Part shown: positions 1 to 12,461 of the stretch, one piece after another | How positions within the stretch are numbered: position 1 is the stretch's first letter | How the letters are laid out: every line of letters begins with the position of its first letter | Origin: Tetmemena sp. SeJ-2015 | Taxonomy: Eukaryota; Ciliophora; Spirotrichea; Sporadotrichida; Oxytrichidae | Direction of reading: 5' to 3' | Length of the DNA stretch: 12,461 nt | Assembly (NCBI GenBank): GCA_027382625.1 | Contig: JAJKFJ010012179.1 | Coordinates: 1 to 12,461, forward strand | The notes under the pieces: model-generated | Databases searched by the model: none | The model's input: only the letters and a program-made list of their open reading frames with translations | What the model was told of the DNA's origin: nothing | Position numbers and translations under genes: made by a program

Positions 1-1326
1 TAAGGAAGCTAGAGAAGACTTTTACTTTCCAACATGCTTTTTTCAAATTAGTCTTAAGCATCAGCCCCATACCATCTTCCTTACTTACTTTGCCTAAATA
101 CTCCAGCAGAGCCAGCTTATGCTAGAGATCTGCTAGAAACATTAAAAATTTCCCTTTCTTCTTACTCGCTATCGACAATTTCCTTTATCAATTACAAGTC
201 ATCTACATTCTTTATTCCCGAGGGGAGCTTTACAATATCATCATAAGAGGGAATCCTCATCAGTCCATAGTCATTTGGAGCCAAGGACATCATCGTAACT
301 TTCAAGTTTTAATTTCTGATTAGCTGATGTCCTTCATGCATAGGAATAAACTAAGTCTTAATAGGAGATTCGTAGTTACGCTTTTAAGGATTAAAGGAAC
401 TTTAGAGAGAGCCTTTCTATCCTTCAGTGAGGTATGACTCTTAAGTAATATTTCTACTCTTGTTGAACATTATCAAACTCGCAGCCCTCTCCTAGCTCTC
501 ATCATTTTCTTTATGGTTGGATAAAGGCATTCGCTCTTTGATGAAAGTCTACCGCAAGCTGTCAGAAGCAATATTTAGTCCTTAGTGAGAATAAGCTGCA
601 GCATTCTTAGTCATGTTAAAGAGGACTTAGTGGGCATATTTGTCTTTGAGCTTTTTACCCTTCTCTCTTGGGTGATCTCTTTGAATTTACTCCTAGCGCA
701 GAATAAAGCTGCCTGCTGTTATAAAGTTATCCTCTTTTGCATGCTGATCTGTTGAGTCAGCCTTATGTCTTACAATCCTCAGATGCACTTGTTTTGCAGT
801 GTGATTAGGCATCACTTGAGCTTGAGGAAGTGAGAAATGGCTTTTGGATACAGTAATACCCTATTAAGGGGCAGACAGGCTTCCAAAAACAAGCTTGTCA
901 TCTAAGTTTGCGGCTTTTGGTGAGGTTTGAATCGAGTGCATCTGCTGTTGCTACAAAGATCTGCTGTGACTTTAGTTCTTATGATGGTGATTCTGCTTGG
1001 CTTATATAAGGATCATTTTATGATCGAGCTGGCTCTTGACTTTCTTCATGAATATTTCTAGACTCTGGAACTGCTTCAGCTAAATAAAGCATTGAAAGAT
1101 GAATTCTTTCATTTATCGTTAAGCTGTCTGTGGTTGACTTGTTTCATCTTTGCCTTGAGAGGGTCTTCGAATGAGAATGAAGTGCCAAGTGGGTCCTTGT
1201 CAACAAATTGCTTTCCCTTGCCTAAGGACCTTGAGTTTACTGGGGCCAATAATAATCAAAGATAAGATAATACTATACTTTTTATAAGCTGGAAGACGAA
1301 TTCGAGGATAAAAGTAATTTGTCCAT
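1..1326 (-). CDS. Locus A: Gln-rich protein of unknown function, germline copy, 3' end outside window
   Basis: Reading the minus strand with TAA/TAG as Gln and TGA as stop gives an open frame from ATG at 1326-1324 to the window edge, about 414 codons after removal of two IESs (1238-1279 and 1078-1125). The start is the first ATG of the joined frame and is followed by a Ser-rich stretch (SSNSSSSLQKVNSRSLGKGK). About 1,080 bp downstream of the second IES are free of TGA. The protein is hydrophilic and rich in Gln, Ser, Lys and His, with a QQQQ run and a His run near codons 115-140. I see no signal peptide, membrane helix or known domain, and I do not recognise the family. It is divergent from locus B with 239 bp between start codons. 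The stop lies outside the window. Confidence 0.8.
1078..1125 (-). other. IES A2, pointer AGCT, 44 nt
   Basis: AGCT occurs at 1078-1081 and 1122-1125. Excising 44 nt joins KQVNHRQL to KQFQSLEIF on the minus strand and bypasses an in-frame TGA just inside the insert. The insert is AT-rich compared with its flanks. Confidence 0.8.
1238..1279 (-). other. IES A1, pointer TACT (AGTA on coding strand), 38 nt
   Basis: TACT occurs at 1238-1241 and 1276-1279. Excising 38 nt joins SSSSLQK to VNSRSLGKG and switches to the frame that reads KGKQFVDKDPLG. The unspliced frame from the ATG runs into TGA. The pointer is short, so the exact join is likely but not certain. Confidence 0.68.
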
Positions 1327-1565
1327 AATTTATTTGCTATTGCTACTACGGAATTAAAGTCTATAAATCTATCGCCTTTTCTCCCAATTATTGATCTATT
1401 CGAATACTCTATGATTTATGTAGAGTCCTTGCTATTTATTTAACTTTATTTTTAATGCCAAAATAAAATGGCAAGGTAAAGTAATGATTATTTGCAGAAA
1501 AATAATGCGAGAATATTTTGATTGAAGTTTTCTTGTGTTAATATAAATCAGTTTTAAGAAATAAA
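1327..1565. other. Divergent intergenic gap between loci A and B
   Basis: These 239 bp are AT-rich and carry no convincing open frame. They should hold the 5' leaders of both genes and, if A and B become separate nanochromosomes, two chromosome ends plus eliminated spacer. A weak inverted repeat (TGCCA 1456-1460, TGGCA 1469-1473) is present. No telomere repeats are seen, as expected for germline DNA. Confidence 0.6.
1554..1564 (+). promoter_or_regulatory. TTAAGAAATAA element just before the locus B start codon
   Basis: TTAAGAAATAA ends 2 nt before the B start codon. The same 11-mer occurs at 9557-9567, 3 nt before the E start, and the core TTAAGAAA occurs at 7813-7820 before D. It could be a leader or start-context element, or coincidence in AT-rich DNA. 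Confidence 0.3.
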
Positions 1566-4500
1566 ATGTTGGCAGACTCCGAGTTCACCTAAAAGAGTGG
1601 GTTGGGCACTTCTATGTTCTCTCGTCCTGGCAAGTTCACCACCTTCTAGTATCTGTGTTTCAGTTCCAGTGGAGGGGAAGCCATCGATCCCAACTCATTA
1701 TAACTAAAATTAGAGAAATTTTTAAGGGGATAAAGTAATTTCTTATTTTAAATAGGGAAGGATACTATTGACGAGAAGGGTGCCAAGAAGAAACCAAAGG
1801 GAGATTACTCCAAAGGCAAATTCTAAAACAACTTTATAATTAATATAATTTTCATGACTTTTATAATAGAAACAATATAAAATATTTTGAGATTGCAAAT
1901 GGCTCTTTATTTATTAGTTACTTGATAGGAAATCAGTTGGACTAAATTGGCTTAACTTCAAGCAGGAGTAGCGTGGTAGGTCCAGGAAATGATATGAACA
2001 GCTCCCTATTGCACCAACCAGATAATAAAGTAGCTAGTCAGTAGGACTAAGAGCATATCACCCAGAATATAATCACCGTCACTATATAATTTAAATTCTT
2101 ACTTCAGAAGATGGCTGAAATAGCTTTGCTTTAAAAGAAGCAGCAGGAGTTTGAGAGGGAGATGAAACTCAGACAGAAAAGAGAGAATTAAAGAGCCAAC
2201 AGGTCAGCTGCTCACACCAAGGCTTAGCTTCTCAATTCTCATGAGAGAGAAATTGAAAAATATTATTTGTAGATTAACAGAGAGGATAACACAACTTTAA
2301 GAAGACTAGGAAGGCAGATGCTACTTTCAAAGCAGTACCTAGAGAATAAGCTTAATTTTATATAATTCAAAACTATAATAGACATTTAATTTTGCTTCAG
2401 TCTATATCGTAAGCTAGACATAAATAATGATGAATCTATCTCTAAATCATTATTCAGGTTACATTCGCTATAATAAATGGTGTAGGCTTACAAGAAAGAG
2501 GACAATCCTGAGAACCTATTTAAGTATAACCCAAAGTTCGATGTCATAGACAAGAAACAGTCTCCTGACTTCAAATTTGACTACGGTTAGAAAGGATAGC
2601 CCCTCGAAAAGCAAGGAGTCCGCCTCTGCGACAAACTCTCTTAGTAAATTTTGTTATTGCTTAAATAATTTTCAGAGCTTGCAAGATGATGAGTCATTAT
2701 GAAAACGCTTCTGGAGAAGGAAGGTGTGACCTGATGAGGAAAACTGCTTAGCCAAATAGATAACAGCAAACTTAGTTAGGCACAACGACAGATGGCACCA
2801 ATGGCGGTTAATAAGAAAATTTAATTGAACTTGTGAAAGTACAGCAAGATCAAAGAGAATAAAATGGAGCTCAGATAGGAGGAACAAATATTGTGGTAGT
2901 CCAAAATGCTTAAAATTAAAATGGGTTTCAGACTTAAAACCCTGCTCAAACATTTGTAGCTTCGTAAGGCTAATCACCCAATAAGAATAATATGAAATCT
3001 TCGCAAGAGTCTTTGTCTCCTATTAAGAGCGCACATAATTACTAATGTGTTTTAAATTAATCAAAGTAGAGATGCAATTAAGCATAAACGGGATACTTTA
3101 ATCTTGAAGGAGGAGGATGAGAAATTGTTCAGACTTTCTTAATTCTTGAGTCAGAGCTAAAGCTATGAATGCTCCCCTCCATATTTAAATCGCTCGTTGG
3201 GTTATCCCAACAATCTAGAGTCGACTACAAAAGCAGGAACTGCCTTTCCTTTTGGACAGAGTGGGATGGGTTTCAATTCTACAAGATCAGGTGGCGGTGG
3301 AAACATGACAGGTCTTAATTTTGGAGCGTCATAGAGGGGATACTTAAGTCGCTACGGGAAGAGTGGAGTCTATTGTTTGATAGATATTAATAAGTAAAAG
3401 AATAGGGACTTTTACTACGATCATATCTAGGGGCCTCACGAAGCAAGGTTTGAGAATATCAATAAAATGCCATAACCCTTCACTAAAGTAAAGCATGTTG
3501 CTTTTCAATTATTCCGATTGATATTGAGATTTTAAGTTTTTGCTTCTCCTGAGTTTGAAAAATATCCTTAAAGGAGATCATTCTTAGAAGGCAATCGACT
3601 GCAAGGAGCAGCAGTTGTTGGTGATTAGTTTAAGCGCTCTGGTGAAGGAAGCTCAGAGGATCCTTCTTTAAAATCTGGATCCTTAAAAAACGGAGGGTAT
3701 AAGATGGGGCATCCAAATTACGATCCTCAATACAGCTAAACTCAAACAAAGCTCTCAATTGGAATTCCCAAGTTTTCTAAGATGCTTCAGCGTAGTGACA
3801 TAACTAATGACAAGAATTTTCACGTTCCTGACCATTACAACTCAGATTAATAAGTTTAAGATATATAAGCATTTCAAGATCTAATTTTGAAGGGGCAGGA
3901 TATGCAATCAAGCTTCAAAAGAGGTTACCCTCAGATTGGCTTTCATAAGCAACTGCCCAGAGATGACAGAATCTTCAATATCAACGAGGGGAATAACCTG
4001 AAGGCGAAAGAGGAGTCTATATTGGAAAAACTACAACACTTAGATTTATACCCACCGAGAAGAGCGATTGCTCTTGCAGATGGTAGTATTTTTACTACCG
4101 GGGGTAAAGGCTCTACAATTAGTTCAGTCATACCAAGTGGAGCGATCAGCAAACATAGAGGAAGTGCTAAGGAAAATCTTACCAAAGTGATATTAGATGA
4201 GTTAACTCTAAGTTTTTATGAAGTGATAAACAAAGGAAGCTTGAGTGTGAAGGCTGATATAAGCTTTCTTAATTATCTTATAGATGAACTCTGATAATAT
4301 TTTAAGCAAACATGATAGCAAGTCCAACTATAGCTTCACTCTAATGTCAGCAGGAGCGGCAGGTGCTTTTGGATAACTAGGTGGTGGATCTATCGTCACT
4401 TCTACTTAGCTGAATGCTCAATTTGAACACAGCGCTCAGAATTAAACCTTCACTATAGATGGAGAAGATATTGCCTTCAATGCTTTCATAAATTAATGAA

Positions 4501-4858
4501 TTAGTTAAAATCTACTTTTGCTTTCAGTCCCTCTAATCAGATAAGACCAGACTAGAGAAGAGGCAACTCTATAGGAAGAGGTGGAGAATTATTTAGTGCA
4601 GCTGCTTCCAAGCCTAGGCAACTTCAAGATCCTTCTTTAATTATCTCGTTTAAAATGAATCCTCCTCCTAGAGACATTTAAGCAATTATGATTAAAAAAT
4701 AGAAGCAGCAGTCTCTAAATAGAATGAGCCTAGAGCAGAAGATTCTAACAGGTTTCTACAAAGTAGATAGTAGACTCAACAAGAAGAGAGGAAGCTAAGG
4801 TAGTGTACCCTAGTCGAGAGAAGACTATCAAATTTAGGTAGAAGAGGTGTCTAATTGA
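1566..4858 (+). CDS. Locus B: about 947-residue Gln/Asn-rich coiled-coil protein, unknown function
   Basis: The joined reading starts at ATG 1566 and ends at TGA 4856-4858. Nine proposed IESs totalling 449 nt leave 2,844 nt (947 codons plus stop). With TAA/TAG as Gln the protein is hydrophilic. Features are a basic stretch (KGAKKKPKGDY, around residues 75-85), a charged helical segment with coiled-coil character from about residue 116 (MAEIALLQKKQQEFEREMKL), then a degenerate EF-hand-like loop near 194-207 (LDINNDESISKSLF). That loop lacks the usual Gly and the final acidic ligand. Long Gln/Asn/Gly/Ser-rich low-complexity tracts follow, for example GGGGNMTG. No membrane helix is seen. I do not recognise a family; a scaffold or regulatory role would be a guess. 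The start is the first ATG of the frame; the joins at B1 and B2 near it are the least certain, so residues 45-100 may be revised. Locus C follows 78 bp after the stop, on the same strand. Confidence 0.83.
1698..1746 (+). other. IES B1, pointer TTAT, 45 nt (alternative GAT, 75 nt)
   Basis: An AT-rich block interrupts GC-richer coding DNA without changing frame. TTAT at 1698-1701 and 1743-1746 gives AIDPNSLFQIGKDTIDEKG. GAT at 1686-1688 and 1761-1763 (75 nt) also keeps frame and gives EAIDTIDEKG. The sequence alone does not decide between them. Confidence 0.5.
1805..1922 (+). other. IES B2, pointer TTACT, about 113 nt, boundaries unsure
   Basis: The frame must shift between about 1805 and 1955, across a strongly AT-rich block with a TGA at 1923-1925. 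TTACT at 1805-1809 and 1918-1922 restores frame (KKKPKGDYLIGNQLDQIGL). GGC repeats at 1815-1817 with 1901-1903 (86 nt) or with 1949-1951 (134 nt) would also do so. Two IESs in this block are possible. Confidence 0.45.
2063..2109 (+). other. IES B3, pointer CAGAA, 42 nt
   Basis: CAGAA occurs at 2063-2067 and 2105-2109. Removing 42 nt keeps frame and joins QEHITQ to KMAEIALLQKKQ. The insert is AT-rich and encodes an out-of-character hydrophobic stretch (IITVTIQFKFLL) if retained. Confidence 0.82.
2347..2415 (+). other. IES B4, pointer TAAGCT, 63 nt
   Basis: TAAGCT occurs at 2347-2352 and 2410-2415. Excision is in frame and joins SKQYLENK to LDINNDESISK. The insert is much more AT-rich than its flanks. 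Confidence 0.85.
2647..2672 (+). other. IES B5, pointer AATTTT, 20 nt (or a 32-nt GT-AG intron)
   Basis: AATTTT occurs at 2647-2652 and 2667-2672. Removing 20 nt shifts frame past a TGA near 2688 and reads LSQQIFRACKMMSHYENASG. A GT...CAG intron at 2644-2675 would also restore the same downstream frame. The IES is preferred because pointer-bounded inserts explain all other breaks in the window. Confidence 0.65.
3034..3087 (+). other. IES B6, pointer CATAA, 49 nt
   Basis: CATAA occurs at 3034-3038 and 3083-3087. Removing 49 nt changes frame and joins LSPIKSAH to KRDTLILKEEDEK. It avoids a TGA at 3118-3120. Confidence 0.85.
3498..3545 (+). other. IES B7, pointer TTGCTT, 42 nt
   Basis: TTGCTT occurs at 3498-3503 and 3540-3545. 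Excision is in frame, removes an AT-rich hydrophobic insert (FQLFRLILRFQV if retained) and reads TKVKHVASPEFEKYPQRR. Confidence 0.82.
4254..4296 (+). other. IES B8, pointer CTGATA, 37 nt
   Basis: CTGATA occurs at 4254-4259 and 4291-4296. Removing 37 nt changes frame and bypasses the TGA at 4292-4294, joining SLSVKAD to NILSKHDSKSNYS. Confidence 0.88.
4482..4526 (+). other. IES B9, pointer GCTTTCA, 38 nt
   Basis: GCTTTCA, a 7-bp pointer, occurs at 4482-4488 and 4520-4526. Excision changes frame, bypasses a TGA inside the insert and reads EDIAFNAFSPSNQIRPDQRR. This is one of the clearest examples in the window. Confidence 0.93.
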
Positions 4859-4936
4859 TTTGCTAAAACTCATTTTCCATTTTATTCCTTGAGCATTTAG
4901 AAGATAATTCAAGATTTTTAAAATTTAAATTACAAA
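4859..4936. other. Gap between loci B and C (78 bp)
   Basis: A very AT-rich spacer separates the B stop from the C start. If B and C become separate nanochromosomes, the 3' trailer of B, the 5' leader of C and any eliminated DNA must fit here. Otherwise the two genes share a chromosome. Confidence 0.6.
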
Positions 4937-7719
4937 ATGAACGATCGCTCTTATCAAGGCAGCAATAATTAAAGAGTTGCTCCAGGCAGTAATGCTTACA
5001 CTTCTAGCCTCGCCAAAACTTTCCAGGAGACCTCACCTTCTCGTTACCAACTTTTTATAATGACCAATTATTTTAGTAACCTGATAGTCTGTACTCGGAC
5101 AAAGCAAATGACTTCCCTCGTTTCAGAACTAATGACTACTCCAAGCCAGAGCTTGAGAATCTAAAGACTTTAAACTCGCAAAACTTGGTCAGCTTGAACA
5201 ATCAGCAGCAGCTTAACCAGATGTAGATCTAAAATGCAAATAGCTCCCAAGCTTAATAGAGTCGCTATCCTATCTTCAAGTAAGCCTTTTTAATTAGGTT
5301 AAAAATAATTTAGTGGGAGAGATCGAGAAGGTCTTGCTGCATAAGCAGCAACTTAAAGATAGATGGGCAAAAATGAATTAGTACAAAGAGATAGCTATTC
5401 TACTAAGAACTATCAGCAGGCATAGTTCACTGCAAACATTAATTTAAATGCAATAGTATTGGGTTTATAGAGTTACTTTAAAACTTGAATTCTTCCTCCA
5501 AACAACAATCTCAAGGCGGGATTAGCTATGGGTAGGTTGCAACAAAAAATGATCAGCAAATCAACTCGAGGGGGAACTAAGAGAGACAGGAGATTCTTGA
5601 TTACTTATAAGGTGTTTAAAAATATTTTTAATAAAAGGTGATGAATTCCAAGAAGGAGAATCAAAATATAGTTTATTTTTTTTTAAAGAATAAGAGGAAG
5701 TTCCCGCTCAGTATTATGAGTCTGAGTATCCAACCTCTTCCTACGACTACTCAGTTCCAAATCATCTTGTGATGAAATATTTACTAATCTTTTAAGTCCT
5801 TATGAACCACCTACAAAGAGACTTAGCTTTTCCAGCATAGCCTTAGCAAAAGGGAATAAACTCAGTCAATTCAGAGCGAGTTATCCCAGCTTATCAGCAG
5901 CAGCCTTTGAACTCCATCTAAGCATCTAATTTGCAGCAAAAGTAGCAGCAATTGTTTTAGACTTAGAACAATCAAAGTCAAGGACTGTAGAAGTTAGAGC
6001 TTTAGTGTTTATTTGTTTTTATAATTCTGCATATATTTAGCTTGACCTTAAAAAGGTATCTCCAATAAAGTTATAAAATGCCCCTTTGAAAAGCGATCAT
6101 CAAGCACCTACTTTAAATACTCCTACTTAGCAATAGCAGCAGATAAGTTAAAGAGGAGGAGATTTCACACCCAAATTCATGGAGGCCTAAGATTCAACTT
6201 ATTATATCCATAAAGTGTGATTATAATGTATTCAACTCGCACACCAGTGAGAAGTGCAACATTGCAGCCAAGTTATCAATAGATTAGAGCACAGAGAGAT
6301 GACGAGGTCATTTCCATCGACGACTAAATAGCCCTCTCAAACGAGAGACAAAAGAGGAATCAGCTGGCACTTGAGCAAGAAAGAATTGAGAAGGAAACAC
6401 TCTACAATGAGCAGCTAAGGGAATTAGCAAATCAAGAGATGCTCATCATATTAAGATGAAGTATTCTCTATAATGTTTTATCAGCAAGTAGAGAATGAAA
6501 ATAGAGCACTAGAGATATAGAGATAGATCTCTCAAGCTCACACTGCTGTTCTGCTTCATCATCGTCCTTCTTATTTGCTGGTAGGACTCTATCACCTAAA
6601 ACTCAAAAAGGAGGCAACTCAACAAGAATAAGAACAGAATTGAAGGAAAAGCCAAAAACTACGATTTGGATAATGACTCCTTGCTAGAGTTTGTTAAGTC
6701 CAATCAAAATGCAACTCAAGCGCAGTAAGAATAAAGTGAAAAAATAAAGAAGCCACTACCTTCGAAGGAAGAAAGTGCTATTTAGAAAGAATTAGATATT
6801 GAAGACTTGCTTCGCAGGACTAAGCAAGTAAGAATATCAAAATCAGTTGTTCCTTTATATGAGGGCTTGAGATATCAACAGCGCTTTACTTTCAATATGA
6901 TAAATGAAAGGGTCTTTAACTCATTTGTCAGCCTGTACTTATCAAATAACACTCTGCACGAAGATTTTGCAAAGATAAAGCTTGATGAATCTACTTCTAA
7001 GAATTCTATTCGAAATAGCTCCAGGATCCTGGGGAAGAAAGAGCACTGGTTTGTTTAGCAAATGCAGGAGTCCTTGCTTTTGAAATCTTATCTATATTAT
7101 TTTGATCTTCAGTTTTGGATCCTCTCTTTGTGAAACTAGTGCAACTTTAATACTAACTACCTGCCATAAATCCTTAAAAGGTAATTTAAGAATCTTATTT
7201 TAGAGTTGAATAATCCAAAAACCACTGCTTCTTTGTTTAGAGAGCGCATAAATAAGAACATATATCATCATATTGAGAAAATGCTCTCGGACTTTGAGTT
7301 TGAAGTAGAGGTCTGCAAATCTGATCTCTCTAGACTTTTCACAAAGTATACTCAGTTGAAAACTTATTAAGAGCTCTATGGAGATGCGGAGGAAACCGTT
7401 CTCTTCAATCCACATGATTCTGAAGATTAATTATTTAAAGTGAACTTATTTTTACTTATATTAAAATTATAGAATAGATTTTGTAGAGCTACTTGTAGAG
7501 TAGCTGATAGTTCAAGATAGATAGCAGAAAATAAAAGTCGAAGGCTCTTTTGACTCCTAGGCTATAGAGAGCTATCATAGAAGAGAGGCTGTCATGCTCA
7601 GAGTGGCAGGAGACTAGATAATGAGGAAAAGATGCTTTGTCAAATTTACTAAAAATGCTAATGAGCTTTTGAAAAAGCTGTCTGAAATTGAGTAAACTGT
7701 ATCCAATGATTTTAAGTGA
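4937..7719 (+). CDS. Locus C: about 781-residue Gln-rich protein with coiled coil and one membrane helix
   Basis: ATG 4937 to TGA 7717-7719, with 13 proposed IESs (437 nt) leaving 2,346 nt, exactly 782 codons including stop. Residues 1 to about 360 are hydrophilic and rich in Gln, Asn and Ser with Gln runs. About 365-420 is a charged heptad-like helix (LALEQERIEKETLYNEQ). Around 424-438 lies one hydrophobic helix (LTLLFCFIIVLLICW), preceded by basic residues (RYRDRSLK) and followed by more basic residues (SKRRQLNKNK). The C-terminal 330 residues are mixed-charge and helical-looking, for example RRTKQVRISKSVVPLYEGL and ELYGDAEETVLFNP. There is no signal peptide. The single short helix suggests membrane anchoring, but compartment and topology cannot be told. 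I do not recognise the family. The start is the first ATG after the gap; Met-Asn-Asp begins a Gln-rich frame of the same style. Locus D follows after 124 bp on the same strand. Confidence 0.87.
5046..5067 (+). other. IES C1, pointer ACCAA, 17 nt
   Basis: ACCAA occurs at 5046-5050 and 5063-5067. Removing only 17 nt shifts the frame and reads SPSRYQLFQQPDSLYSDK. It is among the shortest inserts in the window. Confidence 0.85.
5289..5312 (+). other. IES C2, pointer TTTA, 20 nt
   Basis: TTTA occurs at 5289-5292 and 5309-5312. Excision shifts frame and reads YPIFKQAFLVGEIEKVLLHK. TTAG (5294-5297, 5310-5313) leads to another frame that does not connect to C3, so TTTA is preferred. Confidence 0.65.
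5357..5394 (+). other. IES C3, pointer AGATAG, 32 nt
   Basis: AGATAG occurs at 5357-5362 and 5389-5394. Excision shifts frame and joins LLHKQQLKD to SYSTKNYQQAQFT. Confidence 0.85.
5434..5484 (+). other. IES C4, pointer AAAC, 47 nt
   Basis: AAAC occurs at 5434-5437 and 5481-5484. Removing 47 AT-rich nt shifts frame, bypasses TGA 5486-5488 and reads QFTANLNSSSKQQSQGG. Confidence 0.8.
5609..5640 (+). other. IES C5, pointer AAGGTG, 26 nt
   Basis: AAGGTG occurs at 5609-5614 and 5635-5640. Excision shifts frame and reads EILDYLQGDEFQEGES. Confidence 0.88.
5664..5687 (+). other. IES C6, pointer AAA, 21 nt
   Basis: A 21-nt A/T-rich block with a run of nine T is flanked by AAA at 5664-5666 and 5685-5687. 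Excision is in frame and reads QEGESKEQEEVPAQYYE. The 3-bp pointer lies in an A run, so the boundary is soft. Confidence 0.65.
5764..5791 (+). other. IES C7, pointer ATCTT, 23 nt
   Basis: ATCTT occurs at 5764-5768 and 5787-5791. Excision shifts frame and reads YSVPNHLLSPYEPPTK. IES C8 shifts the frame back, so the two joins stand or fall together. Confidence 0.7.
5815..5852 (+). other. IES C8, pointer AAAG, 34 nt
   Basis: AAAG occurs at 5815-5818 and 5849-5852. Together with C7 the total is 57 nt, so the outer frame is kept. The join reads SPYEPPTKGINSVNSERV. An internal 6-bp repeat CTTAGC (5822, 5842) gives a frame that soon ends in TGA and was rejected. Confidence 0.65.
5998..6043 (+). other. 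IES C9, pointer AGCTT, 41 nt
   Basis: AGCTT occurs at 5998-6002 and 6039-6043. Removing a T-rich 41-nt block shifts frame and joins GLQKLEL to DLKKVSPIKLQNAP. Confidence 0.85.
6192..6237 (+). other. IES C10, pointer ATTCAACT, 38 nt
   Basis: The 8-bp repeat ATTCAACT occurs at 6192-6199 and 6230-6237. Excision shifts frame, bypasses TGA 6218-6220 and reads FMEAQDSTRTPVRSATLQ. It joins what otherwise look like two separate genes (stop 6220, ATG 6226). Confidence 0.93.
6445..6483 (+). other. IES C11, pointer ATCA, 35 nt
   Basis: ATCA occurs at 6445-6448 and 6480-6483. Excision bypasses a TGA and reads ANQEMLISKQRMKIEHQR, leading directly into the frame of the membrane helix. A third ATCA at 6431 (49 nt) leads to a frame that later stops and was not chosen. 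Confidence 0.75.
7119..7174 (+). other. IES C12, pointer ATCCT, 51 nt
   Basis: ATCCT occurs at 7119-7123 and 7170-7174. Excision is in frame, removes the in-frame TGA at 7131-7133 and reads FDLQFWILKRQFKNLILEL. Confidence 0.87.
7424..7480 (+). other. IES C13, pointer AGATT, 52 nt
   Basis: AGATT occurs at 7424-7428 and 7476-7480. Excision of an AT-rich block shifts frame and reads FNPHDSEDFVELLVEQLIV. Confidence 0.88.
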
Positions 7720-7843
7720 AGATTAAACTGTATGCGTGTAATTTATGACCTTAATTCTTTTGTTATAAAGTCCTTAATTAATCTCTTGACTCTTAAAATT
7801 AAAATTACTTCCTTAAGAAAAGTTCTCATAAATAAGTAACTTC
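7720..7843. other. Gap between loci C and D (124 bp)
   Basis: An AT-rich spacer with no convincing coding frame. TTCCTTAAGAAA at 7809-7820 lies 23 nt before the D start and recurs before the E start. No telomere repeat is seen. Confidence 0.55.
7809..7820 (+). promoter_or_regulatory. TTCCTTAAGAAA element upstream of locus D
   Basis: This 12-mer recurs exactly at 9553-9564, directly before the E start codon, and its TTAAGAAA core lies before B. Function unknown; it may be a leader or promoter element. Confidence 0.3.
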
Positions 7844-9266
7844 ATGGAACCCCTTCTTGCATAAACTAGCCAACTTACTAAAGCAGGGCATTAGTTTGAT
7901 TTGATAGTGGTCGGTCTTGGAATATCAGGTCTCTGGCTTTCTTATCTAGCCTCTTCCCAGAATATGAGAGTGTTAGGCTTAGAGAAGAATGGCTTTTCAT
8001 GTTCACCAACAACAGCATCACATGGCTTCACAAGAAGATTTCATCCATCTTAAGGCGCAGACCTGGACTCTGCCCTTGCTATGTGGGATGAACTCGAAAA
8101 GAAATACATAGAGCACAAGTATCCAACTCTTAATCCCATGTCAAAGCGAGAGGAGGGAGTGGAGAGTCTTAAAGACGAAGGATCGTTTGAGCTATTGAAG
8201 AACGAGAAGGAATAAATAGTTCACTAGAAGGAGCACTTGTATGAACGACTCAAGATGACCTATGTCATGAATGAAATTAGAGGGGACTATTTAAAGTCAA
8301 TCGCTCAAGTAATCACAAATGAGGAAATTAGACATCTCTATCCTAGATTCATTCATTCTAAAACTTTAAGTTAATTAATGTAAAGATTATAGTTATCGGA
8401 TATCCACCTTATTAATCTATTCTATAATAATTCTTATCACCATAAATGCATGATGAACAAAGACAGTGCTGGTCTGCTACACTGCTCAAAGATAACTAAT
8501 CATCTGAATGAATTGTCTCTTGCCCAGGGTTGCGATTTCCAATTCAACAAGCATGCAATAGAAATCAAGAAGAACTTTGTAATTACTTCAGATGGCTCCA
8601 CCTACACTTCAGACTGTGTGGCTCTTTGCACAAATAATTAAAAAAAGAATCTTAGATTTAAATGGAGAGGGGTACTATGAGAAGTTTGGACTAGAGCCAC
8701 TGCTGGTGAAGAGTGTGATATTAGAGGGGAGCAGTGCAGGGCTGCCAGAAATGTTTACTGACATGACAAAAGAGTTCTCAGGATTTTACGGGTAGAGAAC
8801 GGGGGAGCATGAACTCCTCAACCAATACATATTGAGAGTGCAATTATTTTAAAGTGTTTATTACATAATTGGGATGACAGACTACAAGACTGAAGAATAG
8901 ATTCAGGATTTTCTAGACCACAGAATTCCAGGGGCAACAATAAAGGAGACTCTCAAGTATATCGACCTCAGAAAGGATAACAAACTAGTTACTATTTGTG
9001 AGCATGATAAATTAACTATCTAAACCCTTCACTTTTTAAATTTAATTTGATAAAGATGAAGGTTTGTTCCACTTATATAGCCCTCCTTACAGACTGGCCC
9101 CTCTATATGCTCACTAAATGCTCCAGCTTATTCTTAAAATTTTTAATTTCTTCTATTTCTAAATGTATTCTAAGCTAAAGCCAGAATAAGGAGAACTAAA
9201 GACTGTGAGAGTAATTTATTTTCTGTTTAAATGGAAGTTATTCCTCATTTACTTACCTCTGGATGA
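7844..9266 (+). CDS. Locus D: FAD-dependent oxidoreductase, sarcosine oxidase / PIPOX-like (DAO superfamily)
   Basis: ATG 7844 to TGA 9264-9266; seven IESs (253 nt) leave 1,170 nt, a 389-residue protein, close to the length of animal peroxisomal sarcosine oxidase. The N-terminus carries a Rossmann FAD-binding fold (FDLIVVGLGISGLW, Gly24/26/29), then acidic Glu47 at the end of beta-2. SHGFTRRFH near residues 59-67 is like the conserved SHG-TR motif of monomeric sarcosine and N-methyltryptophan oxidases. Later parts match the family by eye: NEEIRHLYPR, DSAGLLHCSKITNHL, FSGFYG and DFLDHRIPG. Family members oxidise N-methyl or cyclic amino acids, making hydrogen peroxide. Oddly, the covalent-flavin Cys region (usual CMYT) reads LKYI and the usual SGHGFKLAP reads SPPYRLAP, so flavin attachment and substrate may differ. 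The last join (D7) fixes the C-terminus and is the weakest. No C-terminal SKL-type peroxisomal signal is seen; the protein ends LLTSG. Confidence 0.88.
8345..8388 (+). other. IES D1, pointer AGATT, 39 nt
   Basis: AGATT occurs at 8345-8349 and 8384-8388. Excision is in frame and reads EIRHLYPRLQLSDIH. The insert is AT-rich and falls where family alignments expect no extra residues. Confidence 0.78.
8405..8441 (+). other. IES D2, pointer CACC, 33 nt
   Basis: CACC occurs at 8405-8408 and 8438-8441. Excision of an AT-rich 33-nt block is in frame and reads LSDIHHKCMMNKDSAGLL. Only about 16 nt separate it from D1, so the MDS between them is tiny. Confidence 0.75.
8632..8663 (+). other. IES D3, pointer AAAT, 28 nt
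   Basis: AAAT occurs at 8632-8635 and 8660-8663. Excision shifts frame and reads VALCTNGEGYYEKFGLEPL. Without it the reading ends at TGA 8678-8680. Confidence 0.87.
8826..8867 (+). other. IES D4, pointer TACATA, 36 nt
   Basis: TACATA occurs at 8826-8831 and 8862-8867. Excision is in frame and reads EHELLNQYIIGMTDYKTEEQ. Confidence 0.86.
9005..9054 (+). other. IES D5, pointer TGATAAA, 43 nt
   Basis: The 7-bp repeat TGATAAA occurs at 9005-9011 and 9048-9054. Excision shifts frame, bypasses the TGA at 9048-9050 and reads VTICEHDKDEGLFHLYSPP. Confidence 0.92.
9125..9176 (+). other. IES D6, pointer AGCT, 48 nt
   Basis: AGCT occurs at 9125-9128 and 9173-9176. Excision of an AT-rich, Phe-rich insert is in frame and reads LYAHQMLQLKPEQGELK. 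Confidence 0.75.
9210..9238 (+). other. IES D7, pointer AGT, 26 nt (tentative)
   Basis: AGT occurs at 9210-9212 and 9236-9238. Excision shifts frame and gives a short C-terminus (KTVRVIPHLLTSG) ending at TGA 9264-9266. Without it the reading would run through an AT-rich hydrophobic stretch to TGA 9307-9309. Confidence 0.55.
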
Positions 9267-9569
9267 CATAAATCAGTGCAATTCAAAGAAATAAGGAAGT
9301 TAGTAATGATTTAGGGATTATAGTAAATAGATTAGTAAATAATAAGTTTGGAATCATGAATTGGTGTATTACTGACTATAATTAGTTTAGAATGTTGATT
9401 GAGTATAATTAAATCTCTCGCTTTAGTTACTTATAGAAAATTTGATAGCTGAGGCTACCTCCTAATAAACAACACTCACGATCATCCTAGTTCCATTCCA
9501 TTTTACACTCAAACATAAACAAACAGATCTCCTTCATTCATCTTCCTTTCATTTCCTTAAGAAATAAGC
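9267..9569. other. Gap between loci D and E (303 bp)
   Basis: The left part (to about 9445) is AT-rich with no convincing frame. The right part (about 9455-9569) is C- and A-rich, pyrimidine-rich near 9526-9558 on this strand, and looks like the 5' leader of E. An 8-bp direct repeat GGAAGTTA (9233, 9295) spans the D 3' end but supports no useful join. Confidence 0.5.
9553..9567 (+). promoter_or_regulatory. TTCCTTAAGAAATAA element just before the locus E start codon
   Basis: Contains the 12-mer shared with 7809-7820 (before D) and the 11-mer shared with 1554-1564 (before B). It ends 2 nt before the start codon. Suggestive of a common leader element; function inferred only from position. Confidence 0.35.
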
Positions 9570-12461
9570 ATGAACTCAAATACAAACGACTAGTCTTCCT
9601 TTGCTTAAGACTAGTACACAATAAGAAAAAACACAAAGCCCACTAATTAAAAGTGGGACGACCCCCAAAATTATTTATATGGCAGTGCCTACTTGAATCC
9701 TGAAGCTATCGATATAAACGCCTATAATAAGCTAGGCAGAACTAAGATTCCTGATCTTAATGAGGATTTGCAATCTAAGACTTCAAAGCTGAGAGGAGAC
9801 TAAAAGCCAACCTCGAGCAAGTATACTTCAGAAATTCAGCCCCTCCTGTCACTGGAATAGCTGAACCAAATTTATTAAGCATTAATTCATTGCATTATAT
9901 TTACTCTCAAGACTGAGTTTTGTCCAACTCCCTTAAAAACATGAGCTTGCAAGGCAAGTAACTCGTTATCTCACCTATTTCAGAAGTATAATAATTCAAT
10001 AATTCTAATTTCAATTTTTGATATATAATCTTAGTCGAGCACGGACAGCTCTGGAAGAAATAATTTCCTTACCTTTGAAAAGATTCACCACCGCTCAAAT
10101 AAGCCTATCCTCATCAAGCATCTGATTTTGCAAGATTTCAAAAGGATTGAATGCCCAAAGAAGAACACTCTGTAAATATAAATGCTTGCATATGGTTTTA
10201 AATTATCACTGCTCACAATCACAAGAGCTGCTTTTACTTTCACTCAATCAAAGATAAGAGGAGAGACGACGATTTCTATACTCCTGAGTTGTGCAAATTC
10301 GCAGACACTGAAAAATGTCCTAAAAGAGAAACTCACTTCATCTTAATTTTAGCTTAGAGATAAGTGCAGAAGAGCACACAACCGAGTTGAGAGACTTTAT
10401 CACAAAGATAAGTATAAGACTAAGTTCTGCCACTGCTATCCTAACAAGATTCAATAGTGCGAGTATTGCGACTATTGCTCATTCGCACACTCAGTTGAGG
10501 ACATTAAAGTCAGACTACTACATAATATACTTCCTCAGAATCAGGATTACGATTTCTACATTTTCTTCTTCAAAACTTACTAATGTAATAGTATTTGGCG
10601 TAATCACTTGAAATTTTTAAACCGAGTGGTGTCCATTCAATCATGAGCATAACAAAGCATAATGTGTTTACGCTCACAACTTCCAAGATTTCAGGCGTAA
10701 GCCCAACCTCTTTCCTTATCTCACTGAGCTCTGCGAAGATTGGCAGTCAGGCACTTTCATCACCGCTTATGACGAAGGTTGCAAGAGGCTTCATCACTGC
10801 CCCTATTCACATGGATTATTATTTTAAGTCTATATTTATGGTTGGAAAGAGCAGCAGTTTCATCCACTAGTTTACAAGACTCTACCATGTGAAGAACAGA
10901 AATGCTTCAAGGGCTTTGAGTCATATTTAAGCAATTAACTATATCAGATTTTGATATGAGTGCCCATTTTATCACTCAACCAAGGATAAGAGAAACATAG
11001 AAAGAATTCTAGAAAAACTCAAGCACTAGCAAAAATCAATAAAGGGCCAGTCCTTGAATCCTGAGTTTATAATTTTACTATCTTCCCTATTTTTAGTAAA
11101 CTTCTACCTCTAGTGAATAAGCTAAGGAATCAGAGTAGAGAAGATCATCCTAACCAAATAGAGAATAAAGTAGAGAATAGGATAGCGAAAGTTAAATATC
11201 AAAAGTCTAAGAAAATGTATCTTTTTAAAATTCAAGGAAAGTTCAACTCGTAACAAATCTATCCGACTCACATGGGAACAAGATATATAATGCACGTAAC
11301 CCTTCTGAAAAAGAATAGAGATCTTATGATTCTCAAATTGAGGAGGAGATTAGGCAACTATTTATACCACAAGAGAGAAACTTAAGATGTGCTTAGTAAT
11401 TGGATATGACTCTCATCTTCTTTGACAACAACTTAATCTGTTATTTAAAAAAATTAATTTTTTTCTCTCTCTCCTATATTTGAAACTTAAATCATTTGAA
11501 AGAACTGCAATTCCTTCTAGAAGAATACTTCCTTACATTTTTGTATCTAAAATTATTTGAAGCTGAATCAAGGTAAGATATTTAGCTTCCTTCTTAATTT
11601 TTGTCAAGCGAAATTTCGTAAAGCTCAAGCTCCTAGAAACAGCTAACTAATGGCAAGAGATTCGTACTTTTCAATGACCCTCTTTCCCTTGAAAAATTTA
11701 TTCAGCAGCCAATTAGCCACTTCAATATATCTAACAAAAGTGATACTCATTTTGCAAGTGGAAATAACAGAAATAGTATTCGGAACACTCCTTCAAATCA
11801 AGATTAGAGCAAGAGAATATAGGAATTATAGAACTTTAAGCAAACTTAGGCAATTTAAAGAGTCACATCATATCACACACGTTTCTTATATTGTAAATTT
11901 AAAGAGACTAGACAGTTAAAAGTCACTAGTAAAGGATTCCTAGTTCCTTGAATCACCTAAGTGAATTGAATTCAGAGCATGTGGAGAAGCAAGAGTTCGA
12001 ATTGCCTGAGGAATAGTCAAGACATTTCAGATCAGATCAAATGGGATAGCTACAACATTACAAAATACACAAATTCAACGAAGCAGAGGAAATGCATTCA
12101 TCTATCAAGGCCAACTAGCTTAATTTATAAAAGAGTGAATCATAAACTGAAGAAAATAAGGCTACAACTCTAAATCCATGTGCACAGAGTTTTTTCCCAC
12201 AAACTCATACTCGCAGTAAATAGGAGAGCGTAAATGTATAGTACAACCACAAAATAATGGAATCTTCACCTGTCTATGCCACTTCTTATGACCAAAAGTA
12301 TCTTAGAAATGCTGGACTGATAAATCCACCTCCGGGCTTATCGCATATAAATCCCAGATTTATTTATTTTTTGATTACAGCGATAAAACTTTGACCTTAA
12401 CTAGCAAGTAAACTTTTAAAATGTGAGCCTAGATGACTTAATAAAATGCTAAATGTATGCT
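9570..12461 (+). CDS. Locus E: Unkempt-like protein with six CCCH zinc fingers, 3' end outside window
   Basis: ATG 9570; twelve IESs (480 nt) leave 804 codons open to the window edge. Residues 1-157 are Ser/Asn/Lys-rich. From Cys158 to about residue 375 runs an array of CCCH fingers: CPKKNTAHNHKSCFYFH, then CKFADTEKCPKRDKCRRAH (CX7CX5CX3H), CYPNKIQQCEYCDYCSFAH (CX7CX5CX3H), CPFNHEHNKAQCVYAH, a longer finger ending CKRLHHCPYSH, and CEEQKCFKGFECPFYH (CX4CX5CX3H). Linkers KDKRRDDDFYTPEL, RLYHKDKYKTKFC and GWKEQQFHPLVYKTLPC are the (R/K)RR...Y and YHP..YKT..C motifs of Unkempt and plant tandem CCCH proteins, which bind RNA. After the array come Ser/Gln-rich low complexity and a short helix (LNHLKELQFLLEAESRQ). 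A cytoplasmic RNA-binding or translational-control role is inferred from the family; the target is unknown. The stop is beyond the window. Confidence 0.92.
9847..9924 (+). other. IES E1, pointer TGTC, 74 nt
   Basis: TGTC occurs at 9847-9850 and 9921-9924. Excision shifts frame past TGA codons and reads EIQPLLSNSLKNMSLQGK. ATTTA (9870, 9899) was rejected because it leaves a TGA at 9914. Confidence 0.72.
9987..10029 (+). other. IES E2, pointer TATAAT, 37 nt
   Basis: TATAAT occurs at 9987-9992 and 10024-10029. Excision shifts frame and reads PISEVQSQSSTDSSGRNN. Confidence 0.87.
10166..10210 (+). other. IES E3, pointer CACT, 41 nt, inside zinc finger 1
   Basis: CACT occurs at 10166-10169 and 10207-10210. 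Excision shifts frame and rebuilds CPKKNTAHNHKSCFYFH, the first CCCH finger. The protein family independently supports the join. Confidence 0.92.
10325..10360 (+). other. IES E4, pointer AGAGA, 31 nt, inside zinc finger 2
   Basis: AGAGA occurs at 10325-10329 and 10356-10360. Excision shifts frame and rebuilds CPKRDKCRRAHNRVE with exact CX5CX3H spacing. Confidence 0.95.
10573..10622 (+). other. IES E5, pointer AAAC, 46 nt, just before zinc finger 4
   Basis: AAAC occurs at 10573-10576 and 10619-10622. Excision shifts frame and reads FYIFFFKTEWCPFNHEH. Confidence 0.93.
10811..10841 (+). other. IES E6, pointer ATGG, 27 nt, at the end of zinc finger 5
   Basis: ATGG occurs at 10811-10814 and 10838-10841. 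Excision is in frame and restores CPYSHGWKEQQFHP, a motif typical of this protein family. Confidence 0.93.
10917..10961 (+). other. IES E7, pointer TGAGT, 40 nt, inside zinc finger 6
   Basis: TGAGT occurs at 10917-10921 and 10957-10961. Excision shifts frame, bypasses a TGA and rebuilds CFKGFECPFYHSTKDKR. Confidence 0.95.
11064..11097 (+). other. IES E8, pointer AGT, 31 nt
   Basis: AGT occurs at 11064-11066 and 11095-11097. Excision shifts frame and reads LNPEQTSTSSEQAKESEQ, bypassing the TGA at 11114-11116. The pointer is only 3 bp, but the frame change is required here. Confidence 0.72.
11430..11490 (+). other. IES E9, pointer AACTTAA, 54 nt
   Basis: The 7-bp repeat AACTTAA occurs at 11430-11436 and 11484-11490. 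Excision is in frame, removes TGA 11481-11483 and reads IFFDNNLNHLKELQFLLE. Confidence 0.93.
11520..11562 (+). other. IES E10, pointer GAAG, 39 nt
   Basis: GAAG occurs at 11520-11523 and 11559-11562. Excision is in frame, removes a hydrophobic insert and reads ELQFLLEAESRQDIQLP. The MDS between E9 and E10 is only about 30 nt. Confidence 0.78.
11852..11906 (+). other. IES E11, pointer AATTTAAAGAG (11 bp), 44 nt
   Basis: AATTTAAAGAG occurs at 11852-11862 and 11896-11906, the longest pointer in the window. Excision shifts frame and reads KQTQAIQRDQTVKSHQQR. Confidence 0.95.
12357..12376 (+). other. IES E12, pointer GATT, 16 nt
   Basis: GATT occurs at 12357-12360 and 12373-12376. Excision of this T-rich 16-nt block shifts frame and reads SHINPRLQRQNFDLNQQVN. 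It is the shortest IES in the window. Confidence 0.75.

Follow-up and report, generated by a model that had tools for sequence, protein, structure and literature searches.

What are the many interruptions that break the reading frames of the window, the whole stretch of 12,461 nucleotides analysed here (contig C988, positions 1-12461)? We consider it very likely that the window is germline (micronuclear) DNA of a hypotrich, in which genes B, C, D, and E are interrupted by 41 AT-rich, repeat-flanked inserts that would be excised together with one copy of each repeat. A sequence-only reading had claimed 43 such IESs in five loci; we resolved 41 inserts in genes B to E, and gene A yielded a single candidate.

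The window, its assembly, and its genes

The assembly that holds the window comprises 146,216,379 bases in 5,213 contigs. A search of this assembly with a 24-base C4A4/G4T4 repeat gave 21 matches on three contigs; the reversed control of the query, in effect this repeat shifted in phase, gave 28 further matches, the places of which were not listed. This scarcity of telomere repeats indicated that the assembly is not of the nanochromosome type. The search for DDE_3 transposases in the assembly returned 921 candidates, 150 of which were scored, and among the matches listed all lay above the cut-off. Many transposases together with few telomere repeats fit a germline assembly, not one of nanochromosomes. 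The assignment to the hypotrichs was based on the protein relatives and on the genetic code: with TAA and TAG read as glutamine and TGA as stop (table 6), the joined frames could be aligned to proteins of Stylonychia lemnae and to others. A G4T4 repeat tract, possibly a germline telomere, was seen at C2828:3860-4156. Searches for tRNAs, tandem repeats, and Rfam families found nothing.

By BLAST, C2948:49673-62149 aligns with the window from end to end at 95.8% identity, and this counterpart was taken, from the alignment, to be a second haplotype of the same locus. The substitutions between the two show a sharp step, with 13 in window positions 1-1700 (0.8%) versus 452 in 1701-12461 (4.2%), and a recombination or conversion breakpoint perhaps lies near 1.7 kb.

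The ORF of gene A (3-1199) is open for most of its length, and eight of its nine haplotype substitutions fall at codon position 3. Left of the window counterpart, at C2948:49149-49200 on the minus strand, gene A is adjoined by a gene for a TPR protein, presumably one that resembles the co-chaperone STI1/HOP; a 27-nt in-frame insert with a TGA lies there between two copies of GAAGGGA, and the stretch would be continuous without it. Gene B matches P0090 (E value of 7e-111) and P0091 of Stylonychia lemnae (1e-87), the names of which do not tell a function. The joined gene C gave a single Pfam match, far below the cut-off. Gene D matches P0088 (56% over 97% of the query) as well as S. lemnae P0089, and its Pfam DAO score rose from 25.0 bits for a piece to 46.7 bits (4e-12) for the joined frame; a sequence search of gene D against the PDB found nothing. 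Gene E has 87 relatives, the best being P0001 (68% over 37% of the query), with S. lemnae P0013 at 53%, and its joined 244-aa finger region matches Pfam at 1.9e-14. A Stylonychia lemnae relative was found for each of B, D, and E, and P0001, P0088, and P0090 may, to judge from their numeric labels, be proteins from Oxytricha. Genes B, C, and D lie on the same strand with short intergenic gaps (78 nt at 4859-4936 between B and C, 124 nt at 7720-7843 between C and D), and they may share a common somatic chromosome.

Boundaries and composition of the inserts

Three lines of analysis were used to place the insert boundaries, namely decoding of frame and codons on one sequence, joint decoding of the two haplotypes, and a protein-guided alignment that could jump freely and gave repeats no weight. 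As shown in Table 1, 12 inserts were placed in B, 12 in C, 5 in D, and 12 in E. Single-sequence decoding missed or misplaced in-frame inserts, and a frame profile mainly reflected base composition and could not decide between frames. Joint decoding also removed 2763-2840, 2887-2979, 3455-3463, and 5906-5929, at which single bases are missing from haplotype 2; we rejected these removals and restored the stretches, since the window keeps an open frame across them; the homologues of B support keeping 3455-3463 and align poorly over 2763-2979. Positions 6480-6640 of gene C can be read in two frames, of which the chosen one requires no extra insert.

For 11 inserts (B3, B8, B9, D2, D3, D4, E4, E5, E6, E7, and E9), the alignment, blind to repeats, agreed in length with our final set, at positions slid by at most 6 nt. 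In six runs it made 75 jumps, 17 of which had the length of a listed insert; the other jumps, left uncounted, overlapped listed inserts at a different length or fell in poorly conserved stretches (for example, 27 and 99 nt in D). Inserts B10, C6, and E10 are in frame and lack matching homologue support, and several insert ends depend on picking the longest repeat.

Table 1. Genes of the window and the predicted IESs within them, with pointers, lengths, and the basis of each placement
Feature	Positions	Strand	Pointer	Length (nt)	Frame	Basis or remark
Gene A, main coding stretch	3..1199	-				399 aa ORF; 3' end beyond window
Gene A candidate IES	1082..1125	-	AGCT	44		uncertain; no homologue used
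Gene B, uncharacterised protein	1566..4858	+		2712 joined		12 IESs
IES B1	1699..1752	+	TA	54	in frame	joint decoding; joined protein resembles P0090 here
IES B2	1831..1919	+	ACTT	89		single-sequence and joint decoding; haplotype indels -9 and +1
IES B3	2063..2104	+	CAGAA	42	in frame	protein-guided alignment, 42 nt with both homologues
IES B4	2244..2278	+	AGAGAG	35		joint decoding
IES B5	2345..2471	+	AATAA	127		joint decoding; P0091 spacing fits
IES B6	2647..2666	+	AATTTT	20		single-sequence and joint decoding
IES B7	3036..3057	+	TAAT	22		single-sequence and joint decoding
IES B8	3498..3539	+	TTGCTT	42	in frame	protein-guided alignment, exact with both homologues
IES B9	3844..3876	+	AGAT	33	in frame	protein-guided alignment, 33 nt with both homologues
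IES B10	4185..4220	+	AAGTGATA	36	in frame	single-sequence decoding
IES B11	4260..4302	+	TAAGC	43		single-sequence and joint decoding
IES B12	4481..4518	+	TGCTTTCA	38		single-sequence decoding
Gene C, no family found	4937..7719	+		2346 joined		12 IESs
IES C1	5035..5078	+	ACCT	44		single-sequence and joint decoding
IES C2	5287..5308	+	TTT	22		single-sequence and joint decoding
IES C3	5434..5480	+	AAAC	47		joint decoding
IES C4	5609..5634	+	AAGGTG	26		joint decoding
IES C5	5658..5687	+	GAAT	30	in frame	joint decoding; 34 nt in haplotype 2
IES C6	5772..5801	+	ATGAA	30	in frame	single-sequence decoding
IES C7	6001..6035	+	TTTAG	35		single-sequence and joint decoding
IES C8	6192..6229	+	ATTCAACT	38		single-sequence and joint decoding
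IES C9	6445..6479	+	ATCA	35		joint decoding; frame just downstream less certain
IES C10	7078..7112	+	TTTTG	35		joint decoding
IES C11	7170..7212	+	ATCC	43		joint decoding
IES C12	7424..7475	+	AGATT	52		single-sequence and joint decoding
Gene D, FAD-dependent oxidoreductase (DAO) family	7844..9208	+		1146 joined		5 IESs
IES D1	8355..8429	+	ATTCT	75	in frame	one homologue gives 75 nt, slid by 14 nt
IES D2	8632..8659	+	AAAT	28		protein-guided alignment, exact with both homologues
IES D3	8826..8861	+	TACATA	36	in frame	P0088 exact; P0089 42 nt at 8807-8848
IES D4	9005..9047	+	TGATAAA	43		P0089 exact; P0088 46 nt at 9012-9057
IES D5	9129..9165	+	TATTCT	37		
Gene E, CCCH zinc-finger protein	9570..12461	+		2442 joined		12 IESs; runs off window
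IES E1	9871..9917	+	TTT	47		joint decoding
IES E2	9987..10023	+	TATAAT	37		single-sequence and joint decoding
IES E3	10166..10206	+	CACT	41		joint decoding; P0013 gives 44 nt at 10154-10197
IES E4	10325..10355	+	AGAGA	31		protein-guided alignment, exact with P0001
IES E5	10573..10618	+	AAAC	46		protein-guided alignment, 46 nt with both homologues
IES E6	10811..10837	+	ATGG	27	in frame	protein-guided alignment, exact with both homologues
IES E7	10917..10956	+	TGAGT	40		protein-guided alignment, 40 nt with P0001
IES E8	11064..11094	+	AGT	31		single-sequence and joint decoding; 36 nt in haplotype 2
IES E9	11430..11483	+	AACTTAA	54	in-frame TGA	protein-guided alignment, exact with P0001
IES E10	11523..11558	+	GAA	36	in frame	less certain; single-sequence decoding; P0001 34 nt at 11524-11557
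IES E11	11852..11895	+	AATTTAAAGAG	44		single-sequence and joint decoding
IES E12	12357..12372	+	GATT	16		single-sequence and joint decoding

The frame is shifted by 29 of the 41 inserts; one is in frame with a TGA and 11 are in frame without a stop. Removal of one repeat copy with each insert left no internal TGA in B, C, D, or E, in agreement with the earlier claim that such removal restores the frames. The joined total claimed for C (2,346 nt) was exact, and those for B (2,844 nt) and D (1,170 nt) were corrected to 2,712 and 1,146 nt, because relatives support additional in-frame inserts for B and place the end of D at 9206-9208; the end at 9050 in our first models of D was rejected after reading on and comparison with homologues. 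All four frames were completed without moving any piece, and B, D, and E align with their homologues piece after piece, under a method that permits no other order. With the pieces linear and unscrambled, excision alone would yield a working gene.

The inserts are 16-127 nt long (median 37), with pointers of 2-11 nt, and their AT content is 80.4% overall (71-94% each) compared with 60.8% for the joined exons. A direct repeat of at least 2 nt was found at both ends of every one of the 41 inserts. As a control, the letters of each insert were shuffled 500 times and searched for in-frame repeats within the same ±6 nt. The longest edge repeat averaged 5.22 nt in the real inserts versus 3.49 nt in the shuffled ones (4.10 in the highest set), and none of the 500 sets reached the observed value; repeats of at least 6 nt occurred in 14 inserts (2.2 expected) and repeats of at least 8 nt in 4 (0.2 expected from the shuffles). 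The claim that the coding breaks are AT-rich inserts flanked by short direct repeats was borne out for genes B to E.

These properties bear on two other explanations of the inserts. Ciliate spliceosomal introns are likewise short and AT-rich and lie within genes, and the inserts might be introns of this kind, present in the DNA of both nuclei and spliced from the RNA; introns of 28-42 bp, equally short, are described for Strombidium (PMC10901763), and it has been suggested that introns and IESs can convert into one another (PMC9797194). However, a GT..AG cut is possible within the repeat ambiguity in just one of the 41 inserts (C4, 5609-5634), the other 40 have none, and the direct repeats at the ends, which introns do not need, are far above chance, making a spliceosomal origin very improbable.

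In Paramecium and Euplotes, short AT-rich DNA is removed from genes, and the inserts might be TA-bounded IESs of this kind; the reading of TAA and TAG as glutamine would fit Paramecium. However, TA is the pointer in just one of the 41 inserts (B1), and the pointers vary in sequence and run from 2 to 11 nt, so that we regard TA-bounded IESs as next to impossible here. TGA is a stop in the window, versus cysteine in Euplotes (PMC9797194).

No unsplit copy of a 244-aa part of D or a 273-aa part of E was found in the search of the assembly, and protein identity above 80% to these parts occurs only on C988 and C2948, in pieces. Two paralogues of gene E, on C2499 and C3698, match it without a break over 231 residues at 46% identity. 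A third, on C3012 (28563-29047), carries short inserts of its own, with the repeats AAGT and AGAGA: the alignment of its finger domain is broken by 28, 28, and 50 nt, and E has no insert at any of these places. Four more jumps in C3012 (131, 283, 12, and 64 nt) fall beyond the finger domain or at its edge. Finger-domain inserts thus vary between paralogues.

Divergence between the two haplotypes

In the joined exons, the haplotypes differ at 59, 27, and 193 of 2,882 first, second, and third codon positions, respectively (2.0, 0.9, and 6.7%), and the insert bodies differ by 10.2%. Codons without gaps showed 185 synonymous and 78 non-synonymous differences, which is 0.14 of the neutral ratio, and none to or from a stop; the synonymous and non-synonymous counts were 68 and 24 in B, 40 and 17 in C, 36 and 12 in D, and 41 and 25 in E. 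The joined exons are under purifying selection, as judged from these sequence differences. When the 11 in-frame, stop-free inserts were read as coding, they gave 9 synonymous and 25 non-synonymous differences, near the neutral ratio of 2.9, and these opposite codon patterns allow inserts to be told apart from exons without macronuclear data. Decayed pseudogenes with random insertions would also have frames broken many times, as the raw sequence has; however, purifying selection on the joined exons and the presence of the inserts in both haplotypes render such decay scarcely credible.

Indels are likewise concentrated in the inserts as now delimited. Among 40 indel events, the inserts (1,687 nt) account for 29 and the exons (8,646 nt) for 7, the remaining 4 lying elsewhere, with a Fisher p of 3e-17 for inserts versus exons. 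All seven exon indels are single-base changes of haplotype 2 in B and C, and five cluster in gene B at 2771-2977; as the window has an open frame at these sites, they were read as assembly errors of the other contig, though they could be real.

We also compared the pointers themselves. Changes were seen at 2 of 207 bases in the first pointer copies and at 5 of 207 in the second, versus 151 of 1,480 in the insert bodies, and 36 of the 41 pointer pairs agree letter for letter between the haplotypes, a set chosen partly with both haplotypes in view; four of the five other pairs are shortened at one end. The choice of repeats by identity in one haplotype itself biases toward pointer conservation, and joint decoding saw both haplotypes. 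With repeats chosen from the window alone, the changes were 3 and 6 of 211, and 33 of 41 pairs were unchanged. Simulation without selection, under the same choice of repeats, gave 16.3 changes on average and 9 or fewer in 12 of 400 runs. Just within the insert, substitution per site was 0.11 for the first base and 0.06-0.10 for the seven that follow. Pointer copies differ by 1-3% versus 6-11% for the adjoining first bases of the inserts and 10% for inserts overall. These comparisons are suggestive, but no more than suggestive, of a pointer constraint between haplotypes.

The two copies of the repeat ATTCT of insert D1 in the window correspond to ATTCA and ATCCT in haplotype 2. The search of haplotype 2 gave ATAAAT as its longest in-frame repeat, and joining there would yield a different product. 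We tentatively raise the possibility, itself rather doubtful, that both pointer copies are a selected DNA signal and that at D1 another repeat replaces the lost one, so that the two alleles would be edited into different proteins. A literature search over titles and the openings of abstracts, with subscription papers mostly outside it, found no report of a pointer change between alleles.

Proposed editing and related germline architectures

The MDS/IES/pointer structure put forward in the sequence-only reading is supported by the restored frames and purifying selection, by the agreement of boundaries with homologues that align on both sides, by repeats above chance, and by the fit of introns to just one of 41 inserts. 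The excision of the inserts, its timing, and its enzymes are what we infer from this structure. Each insert would be excised with one repeat copy during the building of a new macronucleus, with a TBE-type transposase possibly cutting the DNA and the pointers providing microhomology at the joint, and maternal template RNAs may guide the joining, as in the Oxytricha mechanism. In that mechanism, according to PMC9797194, template RNAs guide the joining, pointers may measure as little as 2 bp, and one copy is retained; PMC9797194 also cites a part played by the transposase in cleaving DNA.

The loci are of a known kind of hypotrich germline architecture, and the loci themselves are new. They resemble the non-scrambled IESs of Oxytricha trifallax, Tetmemena, and Halteria, which are inserts in coding DNA with variable pointers mostly below 10 bp (PMC9797194 and PMC10901763), and a transposase-rich germline may be a further common feature. 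The exon pieces before the inserts have a median of 156 nt, compared with MDSs of 169 bp in O. trifallax and 179 bp in H. grandinella, whereas the median IES of 37 nt is shorter than the 73 and 104 bp given for the same two species in PMC10901763, medians for which its authors warn of short-read bias. In the studies of O. trifallax, Tetmemena, and Halteria, boundaries were taken from macronuclear DNA, whereas here they were taken from the sequence.

The present data add densely interrupted germline loci to those described, and two germline haplotypes in one assembly allow insert boundaries, silent in-frame inserts, and possible pointer constraint to be read without macronuclear data. If pointers are selected and can change from one allele to the other, it would become directly testable how small a homology suffices to guide the joining of DNA.
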